Assembly: GCA_016282375.1 (NCBI GenBank)
Contig: JAEEKI010000019.1
Span: forward strand, 1 to 64,000
DNA length: 64,000 nt
Direction of reading: 5' to 3'
DNA from: Caryophanales bacterium
GTDB lineage: Bacteria; Bacillota_I; Bacilli_A; RF39; UBA660
The notes below the pieces were generated by a model, which did no database searches, was not told the origin of the DNA, and saw nothing but the letters and a program-made list of their open reading frames with translations. Position 1 is the stretch's first letter, and each line of letters opens with the position of its first letter. Position numbers and translations under genes: made by a program. Positions 1 through 49,977 of this stretch are shown one piece after another.

Positions 1-626
1 ACATTGGCCACCATAAATTTTCCTGCATATGTTTTTCCTGATAATGTACTTTGATCCGCATTTACATTATAGAATTTACTTGTTAATGTCCATACTGCTG
101 TTGAAGTAGTACTACCTGTTCCATCTATTTGCGCTCCACTTACGACGACCGCAGCATAATTGGTATATGTTAATGTTGATAAGTCTGTTTCACTACTTAT
201 ACTGTTTGTTCCTTCACTTACATGAGCATTTGATGCTAAACTTCCTTGAATAGTAAATTCATTTGTAGATACTCCACTTGTATGTGTTGTATATTTATCG
301 GTACTTGTCCATTCATATATGATGTCATATGTACATACCATACTATAATCAGTATTAGCGGTGAAATTTACAGTTAAAGTTGTATTATTCTCGGCGGCAA
401 CATTACCTTGCTTTGCTTGAACCATATTCGCTGCTGTTATATTAAGAGACATTCCTCCACCTAGAGTATCAAACACCATATTATTTCGTTCTGTGACTGT
501 GTTGGAATTGGCTACATTTGTTATATTCATGTTACCAGTTGAAAAGTATGCATATGTTGCCCCGATTATTGTTACTAATAATGTAACTATGGCTATTGTT
601 AATAAAATTATATTATTTCTTTTCAT
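1..626 (-). CDS. Exported TasA/camelysin-like surface protein, paralog 1 (3' end beyond window)
   Basis: ATG at 624-626; translation MKRNNIILLTIAIVTLLVTIIGATYAYFSTGNMNITNVANSNTVTERNNMVFDTLGGG; shares its N-terminal module with the ORFs at 1874, 41803 and 48814; runs off the left edge. Confidence 0.8.
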   Translation of the reverse strand, partial: MKRNNIILLTIAIVTLLVTIIGATYAYFSTGNMNITNVANSNTVTERNNMVFDTLGGGMSLNITAANMVQAKQGNVAAENNTTLTVNFTANTDYSMVCTYDIIYEWTSTDKYTTHTSGVSTNEFTIQGSLASNAHVSEGTNSISSETDLSTLTYTNYAAVVVSGAQIDGTGSTTSTAVWTLTSKFYNVNADQSTLSGKTYAGKFMVAN

Positions 627-1873: not shown

Positions 1874-3211
1874 TTATGATAATGGAGTCCCCATAAATAC
1901 ATCTGCTCCTAGAGTTCCACCATAAGAGGATGTAAACTCAGATGCAGAGGTATATGTAATACCATTATAAGTTACTGATGTTAATACACCACAATTCCTA
2001 AATGCTCGATTATCAATTGATGTAACAGAATTCGGTATCGTTATGGATGATAAACCCGTAGTGGAAATTGCCGAATAACCAATAGATGTCACACCACTTG
2101 GAATATTAATACTAATCAACTTAGGACAGTTTTCAAATGTCAAATTCGGAATTTGTGTTAAAGCACTAGATAATGTTACTTCTGATAAATTACTAATATT
2201 TTGAAAAGAATTTGCACCCAGTGATGTAACTGTATTTGGCATTGTCATAGTAAATAATCTCGTACTAGAAAAAGCATAAGTACCAATGCTTACTATTGGG
2301 CTTGAAATAGTCACTTCTATCAAATTATTCGTTCTATAAAAATTATAATTGCCAATCGAAGTAATATTGCCAGTAATTTCCAAATATTCTATCGAATTAA
2401 AATTTGAACGCCAAGGCTGCTCTGACTCGCTTGTGTAATCAGGCATTGCACCAGAACCAGTTATTTTCAAAAGACCATTACTGTTCAAAGTCCATGTTAT
2501 GTTTTCATTGACACTACCACTGGCAATTTGTGTAACCCCAATAGTGCCCGCAACACATGAAACATTAGCTACTTTAAACCTACCTGAAAAATTCTTACCC
2601 TCTAAAACTTCTTGATTAGCATTCAAATTATAAATTCTACTTATTAAATGCCAAACAGCCGTATTAGTTGAACTACCAGATCCATCAATTTTGGCACCAC
2701 TTACAATGACCGCGCTAGTATTATTACCTACCGCAGCAGTAAAATCTTTTTCTGCTAAAATGTTATTAGTGCCATGCTTAGTATTGTCATTATATGTTTG
2801 ATATGCTTGAATAGTAAACTCATTACTTGTTACTCCACTTGTATGAGTTGTATACCTGTCACTTGAAGTCCATTCGAAAACAATATCGTATGTACAAACC
2901 ATATCATAATCAGTATTAGGAGTAAAATTTACGGTTAAATCCGTGGTATTAGTCACGGCGGCAAACTTACTATTAGCTAGGCCATCAGACATCTTAGCAA
3001 GAGAGATATTAAGGGACATACCACCCCCTACAGTATCAAACACCATATTATTTTGCTCAGTCATGGTGTTAGAATTAACTGCATTTATTACATTCATATT
3101 ACCCACAGAAAAATAAGCATAGGTTGCCCCAATGATTAATGCTAAAAAAATAATAATAACGATGACTAGTAATACCACATTTTGTTTTTTCATATATGCT
3201 CCTACTATCAT
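1874..3211 (-). CDS. Exported surface protein, paralog 2: TasA/camelysin-like N-terminus with BspA-type leucine-rich repeats (likely start MKK at 3193)
   Basis: N-terminal signal ...GATYAYFSVGNMN; C-terminal repeats of the type LTSLGANSFQNISNLSEVTLSSALTQIPNLTFENCPKLISINIPSGVTSIG (LRR_5-like). Confidence 0.8.
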   Translation of the reverse strand: MIVGAYMKKQNVVLLVIVIIIFLALIIGATYAYFSVGNMNVINAVNSNTMTEQNNMVFDTVGGGMSLNISLAKMSDGLANSKFAAVTNTTDLTVNFTPNTDYDMVCTYDIVFEWTSSDRYTTHTSGVTSNEFTIQAYQTYNDNTKHGTNNILAEKDFTAAVGNNTSAVIVSGAKIDGSGSSTNTAVWHLISRIYNLNANQEVLEGKNFSGRFKVANVSCVAGTIGVTQIASGSVNENITWTLNSNGLLKITGSGAMPDYTSESEQPWRSNFNSIEYLEITGNITSIGNYNFYRTNNLIEVTISSPIVSIGTYAFSSTRLFTMTMPNTVTSLGANSFQNISNLSEVTLSSALTQIPNLTFENCPKLISINIPSGVTSIGYSAISTTGLSSITIPNSVTSIDNRAFRNCGVLTSVTYNGITYTSASEFTSSYGGTLGADVFMGTPLS

Positions 3212-36986: not shown

Positions 36987-37008
36987 GAGTTTCAAGACTC
37001 TTATTTTT
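36986..37008 (+). terminator. typA terminator
   Basis: AATAAGAGTTTCAAGACTCTTATTTTT. Confidence 0.75.
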
Positions 37009-37919
37009 AAATTAATTCATATTCACGAGATATAATTCGCTTATCTGAACAATACTTTATAACATAATTATTATCCTGTTTACAAATAATAATTCCTATT
37101 GTTTTATCTTGATTAATTCTTCTTATGTTTTCATCTATATAATTCATATATATTTGTACTTGACCTATATGCTCTTTCTTTAATTCAGATATTTTTAATT
37201 CCACTACAACAAAGCAATTATAATCGTAATTAAACAGTAATAAATCTATATAGTTAAATGTATTTCCCATTTTAATTTTATATTCATTTTTGACAAAGGC
37301 AAAACCATTGCCTAACTCTTCTAAAAAAGAGGGAATATCTTCAAGAATTAATTTTTGTAAGACTTTTTCAGTAACTAGTTCATATTTATCATTACTTTTA
37401 ATAATGATAGGATTTTTAACTAAGTCCAATATACTAGAATTCTGATTATTATATACTAGCTTATTTTTAGTTTCTTTTGGAATTCTCTCATATTCACAGT
37501 TTTTAATTCTTGTTATTAGTTCCCGATAGCCTAAATTATCATATATTGCAACATTTATATAATAAACAATTTTATCATCATCATTGATTGATAATAGTTC
37601 TCTATAATGTGACCAACTTAATTGTGAACGCAATGCGTTCAGTTTGTTATTTTTTAAATTTCAAATAAAACCTTCGCATATTCATAAGATTTCTATAACT
37701 ATATTTTTTGTCTTTCAATTCTATTATTAGTCTTTTTGAATACTCTTTTATTAAACCTTCACCATATTTTGCTCTTATATCACCGCCTTGTGCTTCAACT
37801 ATTAGTTTACCAACATTGTAGTAAGTTTCCACATCACTTTTGTTCTTACTATACTCTTTTATTCTTTTATAAATTTCATTAGTAATTAAAAGGCCCTTTA
37901 TTTGTTCATAATAATTCAT
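37007..37919 (-). pseudogene. DUF1016 (YhcG/PDDEXK nuclease) family gene split into two ORFs (37647-37919 and 37007-37633)
   Basis: The two ORFs align end to end with the intact paralog 42953-43843; frame changes after FYLKFKK at an A6 run (AAATTTAAAAAATAA). Confidence 0.8.
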
Positions 37920-41635: not shown

Positions 41636-41713
41636 TAAAAACCTCCTTCATTTTTAACTATACCATTATATGATAGATAATACTTTTTTTCAATCAATAT
41701 TATATAAACAAAA

Positions 41714-41744
41714 AATCTAATTTCACTTAAAGCAAAATTAGATT
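41714..41744 (-). terminator. 10-bp stem hairpin downstream of surface paralog 3
   Basis: AATCTAATTT (41714-41723) / AAATTAGATT (41735-41744), 11-nt loop, followed by T-run on the minus strand. Confidence 0.6.
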
Positions 41745-41784
41745 CAAGATATTAAGATGTTCGGAAGATCGCGTGGACGACCAG
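41732..41784 (-). repeat. Conserved 53-bp non-coding 3' flank, copy A
   Basis: 51/53 identical to 48752-48804 by direct comparison. Confidence 0.95.
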
Positions 41785-41802
41785 GCAATAATCTCAGCCA
41801 CC

Positions 41803-42903
41803 CTACGATGAACAACGAGCATGGCCAGAGGCATCAACTTCACAGGCCGCGCTCGCAGTCGCAGAGGCATCGTTACAGTAGACATAACCCTCGATGCTCA
41901 CTTCACAGCTGAGGTGCACATCACCGCAAAAAGCGTATCTGCCGTTAGCGCCGCAATCACTTATATCAAGTGTTATTCCTGCATCGATAAAGGCTTGATA
42001 TATTGCTTGTATGGCACTGGCTTTTTGTTCTGATGTTAAATCACTATTCAATGTATGTCCACTTAACCCATATTGAGTATATGGTTGACTTAAACATATT
42101 TCATGTCCCTGAATTGTTGCACATGCATAGTACTTACTACTATCTTGTCCTATATAGACATTATGGCCTGTTGCTGTTCCACTACTTTGTAATGTTCCAC
42201 CATAGTTTGGATGTGTATGGAGTGTATGTAATTCATCAAACCAATAACTTGTTGGACCTGGTGAAGCTACACAAGAAACGTTGGCTACTTTAAATCTTCC
42301 TGAATATGTTTTACCTGATAAGGCACTTTGATCACTATATGAATTATAAAACCAACTGCCAATTAACCATTCAGCGGTTGTTGTATTAGCACCCGTTCCG
42401 GCAATAGATGCTCCGCTTACGACCGTCGCACTATTTTGGTTTCCTACCAACTCCGATAAGTCAACACCATCTTCCGCATAATTAGTTCCGCTACTTACAC
42501 CAGCACTTGGCTCCAACATGACACTTATTCCAAATTCAATGTCAGTTTCTCCTGGGGAATGAGTTGTATAACGATCTGTACTTGTCCATTCATATACGAT
42601 ATCATACGTACATGCCATACGATAATCCGTATTCGGAGTAAAATTGACAACCAAAACATTTTCATCATATGCGGCGGCCTCACCACTTAAAGCTTCCGAC
42701 ATATTTGCGGCTGTTATATTTAATTGCATTCCTCCGCCTAGAGTATCAAACACCATATTATTTCTTTCAGTAACTGTATTAGCATTTGCTACATTTGTTA
42801 TATTCATATTACCGGTTGAAAAGTATGCATAGGTTGCTCCGATTATTGTTACTAATAATGTAACTATTGCTATCGTTAATAAAATTATATTATTCTTTTT
42901 CAT
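41803..42903 (-). CDS. Exported TasA/camelysin-like surface protein, paralog 3, Cys-rich diversified C-terminus
   Basis: N-terminus MKKNNIILLTIAIVTLLVTIIGATYAYFSTGNMNITNVANANTVTERNNMVFDTLGGG; C-terminus CGANGRYAFCGDVHLSCEVSIEGYVYCNDASATASAACEVDASGHARCSS. Confidence 0.85.
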   Translation of the reverse strand: MKKNNIILLTIAIVTLLVTIIGATYAYFSTGNMNITNVANANTVTERNNMVFDTLGGGMQLNITAANMSEALSGEAAAYDENVLVVNFTPNTDYRMACTYDIVYEWTSTDRYTTHSPGETDIEFGISVMLEPSAGVSSGTNYAEDGVDLSELVGNQNSATVVSGASIAGTGANTTTAEWLIGSWFYNSYSDQSALSGKTYSGRFKVANVSCVASPGPTSYWFDELHTLHTHPNYGGTLQSSGTATGHNVYIGQDSSKYYACATIQGHEICLSQPYTQYGLSGHTLNSDLTSEQKASAIQAIYQAFIDAGITLDISDCGANGRYAFCGDVHLSCEVSIEGYVYCNDASATASAACEVDASGHARCSS

Positions 42904-42952: not shown

Positions 42953-43843
42953 TTATATTAATTCATATTCTCTGGCAATAATTCTATCATCTGAGCAATA
43001 CTTAATGACATATTTGTTATCCTGCTTACAAACAATGATACCGATTGTTTTATCTTGATTTATTCTTTTTACATTTTCATCTATGTAATTCATATATACT
43101 TGAATTTGACCTATATGTTCTTTCTTTAATTCAGTTATTTTTAATTCCACTACTACATAACAATTATATTCTATATTAAATAGAAGTAAATCAATATAGT
43201 TATATCTATTACCTACTTTAATCTTATATTCACTTCCTACAAAACTAAAAGCATCACCTAGTTCTTTCATAAATGACTCAATATCCTCTAAGATTATTTT
43301 TTTTAATACTTTTTCCGAAAAACATTCATAATTAGTGCAATTTTTAATTAAAATTGGATTTTTAACTAAATCTTTAATATTCAATTTATCATTGTTTCTT
43401 ATTTTATATTTAGTCTTTTCATCAACGCGACTATATTCATCATTTTTTATTATTTCTCTTAACTTTCGATAACTTATATTTTTATTAATAACAATACTAA
43501 TGTAATAATTAACCTCATCAGCATTAGACAATATCATTAATTCTGTTATATGACTCCAACTTAATTCGGTCGGCAATGACGACCATTTTAAATCTTTAAC
43601 AAATCTATAAAATTGTCTGTATCTTCTTAAAGTTCTTTCATTATACTTTTTATTTAATTCATTTTTTAATTTATTTGCATAGTCGCAAATAACATTTTCT
43701 CCATAATGTTTTCCAGCATCATTTAGCATTTTTCCAACTTTATAGTATGTATTTAAGTCACTTTTATTAATGGAATAGTTTTTTACACTTTTATTAATTT
43801 CATTGTTAATTAATTCATTTTTTATTTCATCGTAATAATTCAT
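42953..43843 (-). CDS. DUF1016 (YhcG/PDDEXK nuclease) family protein
   Basis: ELSWSHITELM, YNYIDLLLFNIEYNCYVVVELKITELKKEHIGQIQVYMNYID, KQDNKYVIKYCSD. Confidence 0.88.
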   Translation of the reverse strand: MNYYDEIKNELINNEINKSVKNYSINKSDLNTYYKVGKMLNDAGKHYGENVICDYANKLKNELNKKYNERTLRRYRQFYRFVKDLKWSSLPTELSWSHITELMILSNADEVNYYISIVINKNISYRKLREIIKNDEYSRVDEKTKYKIRNNDKLNIKDLVKNPILIKNCTNYECFSEKVLKKIILEDIESFMKELGDAFSFVGSEYKIKVGNRYNYIDLLLFNIEYNCYVVVELKITELKKEHIGQIQVYMNYIDENVKRINQDKTIGIIVCKQDNKYVIKYCSDDRIIAREYELI

Positions 43844-48690: not shown

Positions 48691-48736
48691 CGTGTGCCTA
48701 CATTTCATTCGGCACGCATTCGGCCTATTCGGCCTT

Positions 48737-48760
48737 TAATTTTGCCTATCGGCAAAATTA
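48737..48760 (-). repeat. Perfect 10-bp stem / 4-nt loop hairpin downstream of surface paralog 4
   Basis: TAATTTTGCC (48737-48746) TATC GGCAAAATTA (48751-48760). Confidence 0.9.
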
Positions 48761-48804
48761 GATTCAAGATATTAAGATGTTCGGAAGAACGCGGGGACGA
48801 CCAG
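48752..48804 (-). repeat. Conserved 53-bp non-coding 3' flank, copy B
   Basis: 51/53 identical to 41732-41784. Confidence 0.95.
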
Positions 48805-48813
48805 ACACCAAGC

Positions 48814-49977
48814 TCAGCCACCATACGATTCACAAGCAGCATGACCAGAGGCATCTACTTCACAGCTATCGCTCGCATCGCCACAGAAGACTATGCCATA
48901 AACGACGTCCACCGTACAGGAGATGTCCCCATCATAAAAGACACAATTAACATTATCATCGTTGGCACCACAACTCCAATTAACATCCCAGCCTTCAACC
49001 AATTCATTTCCAGCATCAATGAATACTTGCCCAAGCGCTTGCGAAGAACTTGCTTTTTGCGCACTTGTTAAATTATTACCTATAATGTGATCTTCAAGGC
49101 CATATTGACTATATGGTTGCGATAAACATACTTCATGGCCATTACCATCATTGGCACATGCATAGTACTTACTACTATCTTGGCCTATATATACATTATG
49201 TCCTGTTGCTGTTCCACTACTTTGTAATGTTCCTCCGTAATTTGGATGTGTATATAATGGTTCATATTGTTCGGTATTATCATTCCATGTTGATGGTGCA
49301 AACCAGTAACTTGTTGGTCCTGATGGAATTGCGGTTCCTGCTACACATGAGACATTGGCCACCTTAAACTTTCCTGCATATGTTTTTTCTGATAATGTAC
49401 TTTGATCTGCATTTACATTATAAAACTTACTTGTTAATGTCCATACTGCTGTACTTGTCGTAGAACCTGTTCCATCTATTTGGGCTCCACTTACTACTGT
49501 TGCGGCATAGTTTGTATATATTAACGTGGATAAATCAGTCTCACTACTTATACTATTGGTTCCTTGTGATACGTGCGCATTATTTGCTAAAGTACCTTGA
49601 ATGGTAAATTCATTACTTGTTACTCCACTTGTATGTGTTGTATATTTATCAGTACTTGTCCATTCATATACAATATCATAGGTACATACCATACTATAAT
49701 CAGTGTTGGGTGTAAAATTTACAGTTAGTGTGGTAGAGTTGTTGGCCGCTACAGTTCCATTATTGGCTTGTACCATATTCGCAGCTGTAATATTAAGACT
49801 CATTCCGCCACCTAAGGTATCAAATACCATATTATTTCTCTCTGTTACTGTATTAGCATTTGCTACATTCGTTATATTCATATAACCTGTTGCAAAGTAT
49901 GCATACGTTGCAAAGGTAACTATGGCAAATAATGTTACTATGGCTATTATTATTAATATTATATTATACTTTTTCAT
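48814..49977 (-). CDS. Exported TasA/camelysin-like surface protein, paralog 4, Cys-rich diversified C-terminus
   Basis: N-terminal module as the other paralogs; C-terminus CGANDDNVNCVFYDGDISCTVDVVYGIVFCGDASDSCEVDASGHAACESYGG. Confidence 0.85.
   Translation of the reverse strand: MKKYNIILIIIAIVTLFAIVTFATYAYFATGYMNITNVANANTVTERNNMVFDTLGGGMSLNITAANMVQANNGTVAANNSTTLTVNFTPNTDYSMVCTYDIVYEWTSTDKYTTHTSGVTSNEFTIQGTLANNAHVSQGTNSISSETDLSTLIYTNYAATVVSGAQIDGTGSTTSTAVWTLTSKFYNVNADQSTLSEKTYAGKFKVANVSCVAGTAIPSGPTSYWFAPSTWNDNTEQYEPLYTHPNYGGTLQSSGTATGHNVYIGQDSSKYYACANDGNGHEVCLSQPYSQYGLEDHIIGNNLTSAQKASSSQALGQVFIDAGNELVEGWDVNWSCGANDDNVNCVFYDGDISCTVDVVYGIVFCGDASDSCEVDASGHAACESYGG

Follow-up and report, generated by a model that had tools for sequence, protein, structure and literature searches.

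A Noncoding Block Is Shared by Two Genes with Variable Tails

Why should a noncoding block of 53 bp be nearly invariant behind two genes whose coding tails, lying next to it, vary? The window, by which we mean the whole stretch of DNA that was analysed (64,000 nt; JAEEKI010000019.1, positions 1 to 64,000, forward strand; GC 28.9%), contains the block at 41732-41784 and at 48752-48804. Direct comparison of the two copies gave identity at 51 of 53 bases, and the ORF list places them behind two paralogous genes on the minus strand, 41803-42903 (gene A) and 48814-49977 (gene B), 18 bp and 10 bp 3′ of the respective stop codons, confirming the match outside the reading frame that a preliminary description had reported. 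The same description called the coding tails strongly diverged. Genes A and B agree at 58 of the next 73 bases beyond the block, toward the stop codon and tail, and tails of the family differ mainly at codon positions 1 and 2. The 37-nt core of the block occurs exactly twice in the window and not once in dinucleotide shuffles of it. The two loci are organized as follows (VR, variable repeat; IMH, initiation of mutagenic homing).

48814..49977, minus strand: putative target gene B, 387 aa, with an N-terminal membrane/signal segment, a conserved middle and a variable Cys-rich C-terminal tail (ORF and family alignment)
48805..48960, minus strand: VR-like tail of gene B, limits approximate, extending beyond the stop codon (alignment and column profile)
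48780..48804, minus strand: GC-rich, IMH-like element, CTGGTCGTCCCCGCGTTCTTCCGAA on the gene strand (70% GC over the 23-nt class-a consensus)
48752..48779, minus strand: 28-mer CATCTTAATATCTTGAATCTAATTTTGC, common to all copies, its 3′ portion forming the first arm of hairpin 1
48737..48760, minus strand: hairpin 1, TAATTTTGCC-GATA-GGCAAAATTA, with a loop that matches GRNA
48722..48734, minus strand: hairpin 2, GGCC-GAATA-GGCC (fold)
48694..48715, minus strand: hairpin 3, containing GTGCCGAATGAAATGTAGGCAC, for which the G225 VR described below has a homologous counterpart in its flank
41803..42903, minus strand: putative target gene A, 366 aa, a paralog of gene B whose tail is likewise Cys-rich and variable (ORF and family alignment)
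41785..41960, minus strand: VR-like tail of gene A, limits approximate (alignment and column profile)
41760..41784, minus strand: GC-rich, IMH-like element of copy A (alignment, identity profile)
41732..41759, minus strand: 28-mer of copy A (exact core match, identity profile)
41713..41745, minus strand: hairpin of copy A, a 15-bp stem followed by a T-run (fold), probably doubling as the terminator of gene A
3..626, minus strand: further gene of the family, truncated by the contig start, tail absent (ORF reading)

Elsewhere in the window, the gene at 1874-3211 joins the N-terminal part of the target family to a leucine-rich-repeat-like C-terminal half; thus, the N-terminal module is common to different C-terminal domains. 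The genes at 37007-37919 and 42953-43843 are similar to each other, with 82-87% identity in stretches, and the first is split into two frames.

The Module Recurs behind About 20 Tails of One Family

The preliminary description had proposed a genome-wide search for the 53-mer and had counted restriction to the two window loci against its reading; the block is not so restricted. In the window's own assembly (G000, a 1.08-Mb MAG, ~85% complete), a 78-nt query located ~20 sites, 19 good copies and one weak copy (C10:40k), each marking a tail of the target family; all good copies, when read individually, were found behind the tail of one Cys-rich family. Their order on the gene strand is constant: the variable Cys-rich tail, the stop codon, a GC-rich element of one of several classes, the 28-mer and the second arm of the hairpin. 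The 28-mer is the most conserved part of this module despite being noncoding, with a mean pairwise identity across copies of 96%, compared with 80% for the upstream coding sequence and 65% for the VR, while the GC-rich element averages 47% across classes and 84% within class a. No Rfam family covers the module.

A stem of 9-15 bp is present in 19 of the 20 complete flanks, which come from G000 and from a rumen MAG contig (L112; JAEEYW010000066.1) that carries another copy with the same flank and possibly belongs to this species or a near one. In the exception, L009, a mismatch in the 5′ arm is not bridged by the simple stem scan. The loop is GATA, GACA or GAAA, all fitting GRNA, in 11 of the 20 flanks, the other loops being TTA, TTTAAT, TATC, ATTA and AAAA. 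By sequence and fold, an IMH-like element and a hairpin are present 3′ of the VR. The hairpin continues into a T-run in roughly half of the flanks and so probably serves as a transcription terminator as well. Five members of the family are without the module, and their tails consist mostly of T-ending codons, with 21% NNC compared with 49% in members that have it. The module and the VR-type tail occur together.

Tail Variation Is Directed at Adenines

In the alignment and column profile of the family, a variable repeat occupies the 3′ end of the target genes. Codon positions 1 and 2 vary within these tails and position 3, mostly C, is conserved, whereas upstream of the tails in the same genes the pattern is reversed and position 3 varies most. 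We fitted a model with one mutable template base, taking each base in turn and inferring the template from the copies. Because the copies share ancestry and the fit included no correction for a tree, the numbers are descriptive, with the upstream part of the same genes as internal control: the VR fit gave a lnL of −2192.7 for A versus −2305.8 or worse for C, G and T (a gain of >110), with a mutation fraction under the A model of 0.49 at A versus 0.14 at other bases, and A was not favoured in the upstream region; leave-one-out mismatch in the tail was 43% at A sites and 21% at others, as against 17% and 15% upstream. The inferred template is AAC-rich, like known template repeats (GCTAACGACAACAACGCTAACTGCAATGT...). 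Tail variation is thus best explained by mutable template adenines. Non-adenine VR positions also differ, at a fitted 9-14%, compared with almost none in the template repeat/VR (TR/VR) pairs of relatives, which points to multiple templates, to VRs that are old or inactive, or to a chimeric assembly.

A Canonical DGR in a Relative Carries a Homologous Flank

Besides the tails in G000, a profile of the tail domain matched three module-free members in the same-genus genome G002 and two distant ones elsewhere in the GTDB family. The genome G225 (locus L173), from another genus of that family, harbors a target gene (743-1363) that bears the same kind of six-cysteine tail, together with a VR (1217-1377) and a template repeat (1587-1747) that differ at 22 positions, 19 of them template adenines and 3 others. 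The locus further encodes an Avd protein (PHROG E 8.8e-12) and the start of a reverse transcriptase (RT) that is cut by the contig end (PHROG E 4.4e-18; 41% identity with the RT of G002). Translation of its template repeat yields the tail in an asparagine-rich form (CNVNSNGNVNCNDN...), and the repeat is, judged from its sequence, a clear template for the Cys-rich scaffold. The G225 VR and TR diverge directly after TCGCTCGCCCC, and the sequence following the VR aligns with the G000 flank at 73% identity over 99 nt (copy C6). Both flanks fold into the same set of three hairpins, arranged alike, with hairpin 1 starting 22 nt in and carrying a GATA loop, and the 9-mer TGTAGGCAC of hairpin 3 was found, in the 284 kb scanned, only behind the modules and the G225 VR.

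Because the module is homologous to the flank of a canonical VR with the same tail type, we conclude that the 53 bp very probably serve a diversity-generating retroelement (DGR) as its target-site module, most likely a site of the IMH/hairpin type, and regard this G225 element as the decisive evidence. The preliminary description had likened the block to a DGR initiation-of-mutagenic-homing region, a reading now supported by the ~20 tail-linked copies, the adenine-directed variation, the 3′ hairpin and the homologous G225 flank. In such a system, an error-prone RT would copy an adenine-rich template RNA and the cDNA would replace the VR, that is, the 3′ end of each target gene. Homing would be guided by the GC-rich element just beyond the stop codon and by the hairpin that follows, with which the 28-mer overlaps; use of this hairpin in homing is presumed. 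The ~20 dispersed paralogs with the module would then constitute a repertoire of variable six-cysteine tails on proteins that are presumably displayed at the surface, and in the window's species the machinery would act in trans on all copies.

Searches for the Presumed Machinery in the Window's Own Genome

Searches with PF00078 and phrog_1423 detected no RT in the ~85% complete G000 assembly. A template repeat was not found there either; at the DNA level, the inferred template matched nothing better than a VR (90%). At least nine contig ends lie inside the target family (C1, C6, C7, C13, C14, C16, C17 twice and C20), and with the assembly breaking inside this family, a cassette with the template repeat was likely lost. 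We infer that the RT and template repeat are located in unassembled or unbinned sequence. The extra copies that the preliminary description anticipated, at other target genes, at a template repeat or in silent tail cassettes, were encountered in G000 at target genes, and not as a template repeat or, all hits being open frames, as cassettes.

Canonical DGRs are present in same-genus genomes, with TR/VR differences at adenines in 17 of 17 cases in G002 and 15 of 15 in G009. RTs are present in the same-genus genomes G002, G005, G008 and G009 as well as in G225, and Avd in G225 and G002. A canonical DGR in a rumen MAG (L115, G168:C29:1-12000; TR from 2180, VR from 1943; 14 of 15 TR/VR differences at adenines) was considered as the missing machinery and rejected, as its VR and TR are its own and unrelated. 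The target protein of this DGR, which opens with a type IV prepilin signal, matches a family of phage tail proteins. Searches of viral contigs, phages and plasmids turned up no relative of the tail, the 28-mer or the inferred template: none of 38 16-mer matches in viral contigs extends past 18 nt, and two viral matches to the G225 target cover only 27 residues, all in its N-terminal half.

Probable Copying between Targets and Alternative Explanations

One and the same stretch of ~180 bp, with the VR inside it, follows two different 5′ gene parts, at the starts of C16 (C16:1-130) and C17 (C17:1-129), and leads into flanks of two classes, class a at the end of C17 (L009) and class b at the start of C13 (L021). 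An identical VR is not expected twice from random adenine mutagenesis, and thus either a finished VR passed by copying from one locus to another or the assembly collapsed two strains. Copying between repeats probably also occurs, and the shared VR together with the 9-14% non-adenine difference suggests multiple templates and past conversion among the targets.

These same observations, along with the RT not found in the assembly, are what would speak for recombination or gene conversion among the ~20 paralogous tails as the whole explanation, the 53-mer serving as a homology anchor, no retroelement being currently active and the adenine pattern being a fossil. We consider this improbable. Conversion does not produce variation that is specific to adenines while third codon bases stay conserved, a search for silent tail cassettes turned up none, and a homologous module lies behind the canonical VR of G225. 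Tail recombination, the alternative raised in the preliminary description, was thus seen once, in the shared ~180-bp VR, and leaves the adenine signature unexplained. Least credible is a mere transcription terminator duplicated along with the gene family, which would account for the hairpin and the T-run that follows it in about half of the copies, but not for a 28-mer far more conserved than the preceding coding sequence when terminators need no fixed sequence before the stem, for the lack of the module in members that also lack VR-type tails, or for the homology of the G225 flank.

Comparison with Known DGRs

The DGR target-site reading can be set against systems already described. For phage DGRs, a GRNA loop consensus is reported in hairpins 3′ of the VR, where the IMH and the hairpin are enough to make a foreign gene a target (PMC3240598). 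As in BPP-1 and related phage DGRs (PMC3240598), the G000 modules have a GC-rich element at the VR 3′ end followed by a hairpin, adenine-directed variation in the VR and, in the 11 flanks noted above, the 4-nt GRNA loop. In contrast to the GC-rich phage stems, their 9-15-bp stems are AT-rich and some loops are of other kinds; a shared 28-mer, ~20 copies, several GC-element classes and an RT not found in the assembly also set them apart. The G225 DGR shares the six-Cys tail, the VR and the homologous flank, and there the target and template repeat are adjacent, whereas the window's genome has many remote targets.

The Thiohalocapsa PB-PSB1 repertoire comprises 9 loci, 15 targets and 21 VRs (PMC10907252) and resembles G000 in having many targets per genome, some probably diversified in trans, and sequence sharing between loci. 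It differs in that its C-type-lectin targets carry fused defence domains and belong to a multicellular bacterium (PMC10907252), compared with ~20 Cys-rich-tail proteins in a ~1.1-Mb genome. Annotated VR regions in a survey of DGR targets were systematically of the C-type-lectin type (PMC8144416). The G000 tail gave no significant match to Pfam, NCBIfam, PHROGs or PDB sequences, and its AlphaFold model (pLDDT 59.9) was too weak for use. A Cys-rich tail with no detectable C-type-lectin homology is new as a putative DGR target, and the ~20 dispersed targets are a new aspect beside it. If its fold proves different, the six-cysteine scaffold would represent a second solution to massive sequence tolerance. 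More tentatively, at somewhat less than an even chance, a small-genome rumen-type bacterium might hold at least 20 surface proteins with disulfide-rich, non-lectin tails. One or a few DGRs with several IMH classes would then rewrite these tails in trans, and finished VRs would also pass between genes by copying. With ~20 targets and several target-site classes in a ~1.1-Mb genome, trans-targeting and IMH specificity would become testable by within-genome comparison.

The N-terminal architecture of the targets is shared with that of the same-genus DGR in G002, which has both RT and Avd (L069 and L074 are the G002 and G009 loci), while G002-type targets end in another VR domain (...GVRPVLYL...). 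A 763-aa gene in G000 (L014, G000:C20:47000-52500) resembles the G002 DGR target over much of its length (...NVRPVVYLKSD...) and has the Cys-rich VR tail behind, an apparent swap or addition of a variable domain.
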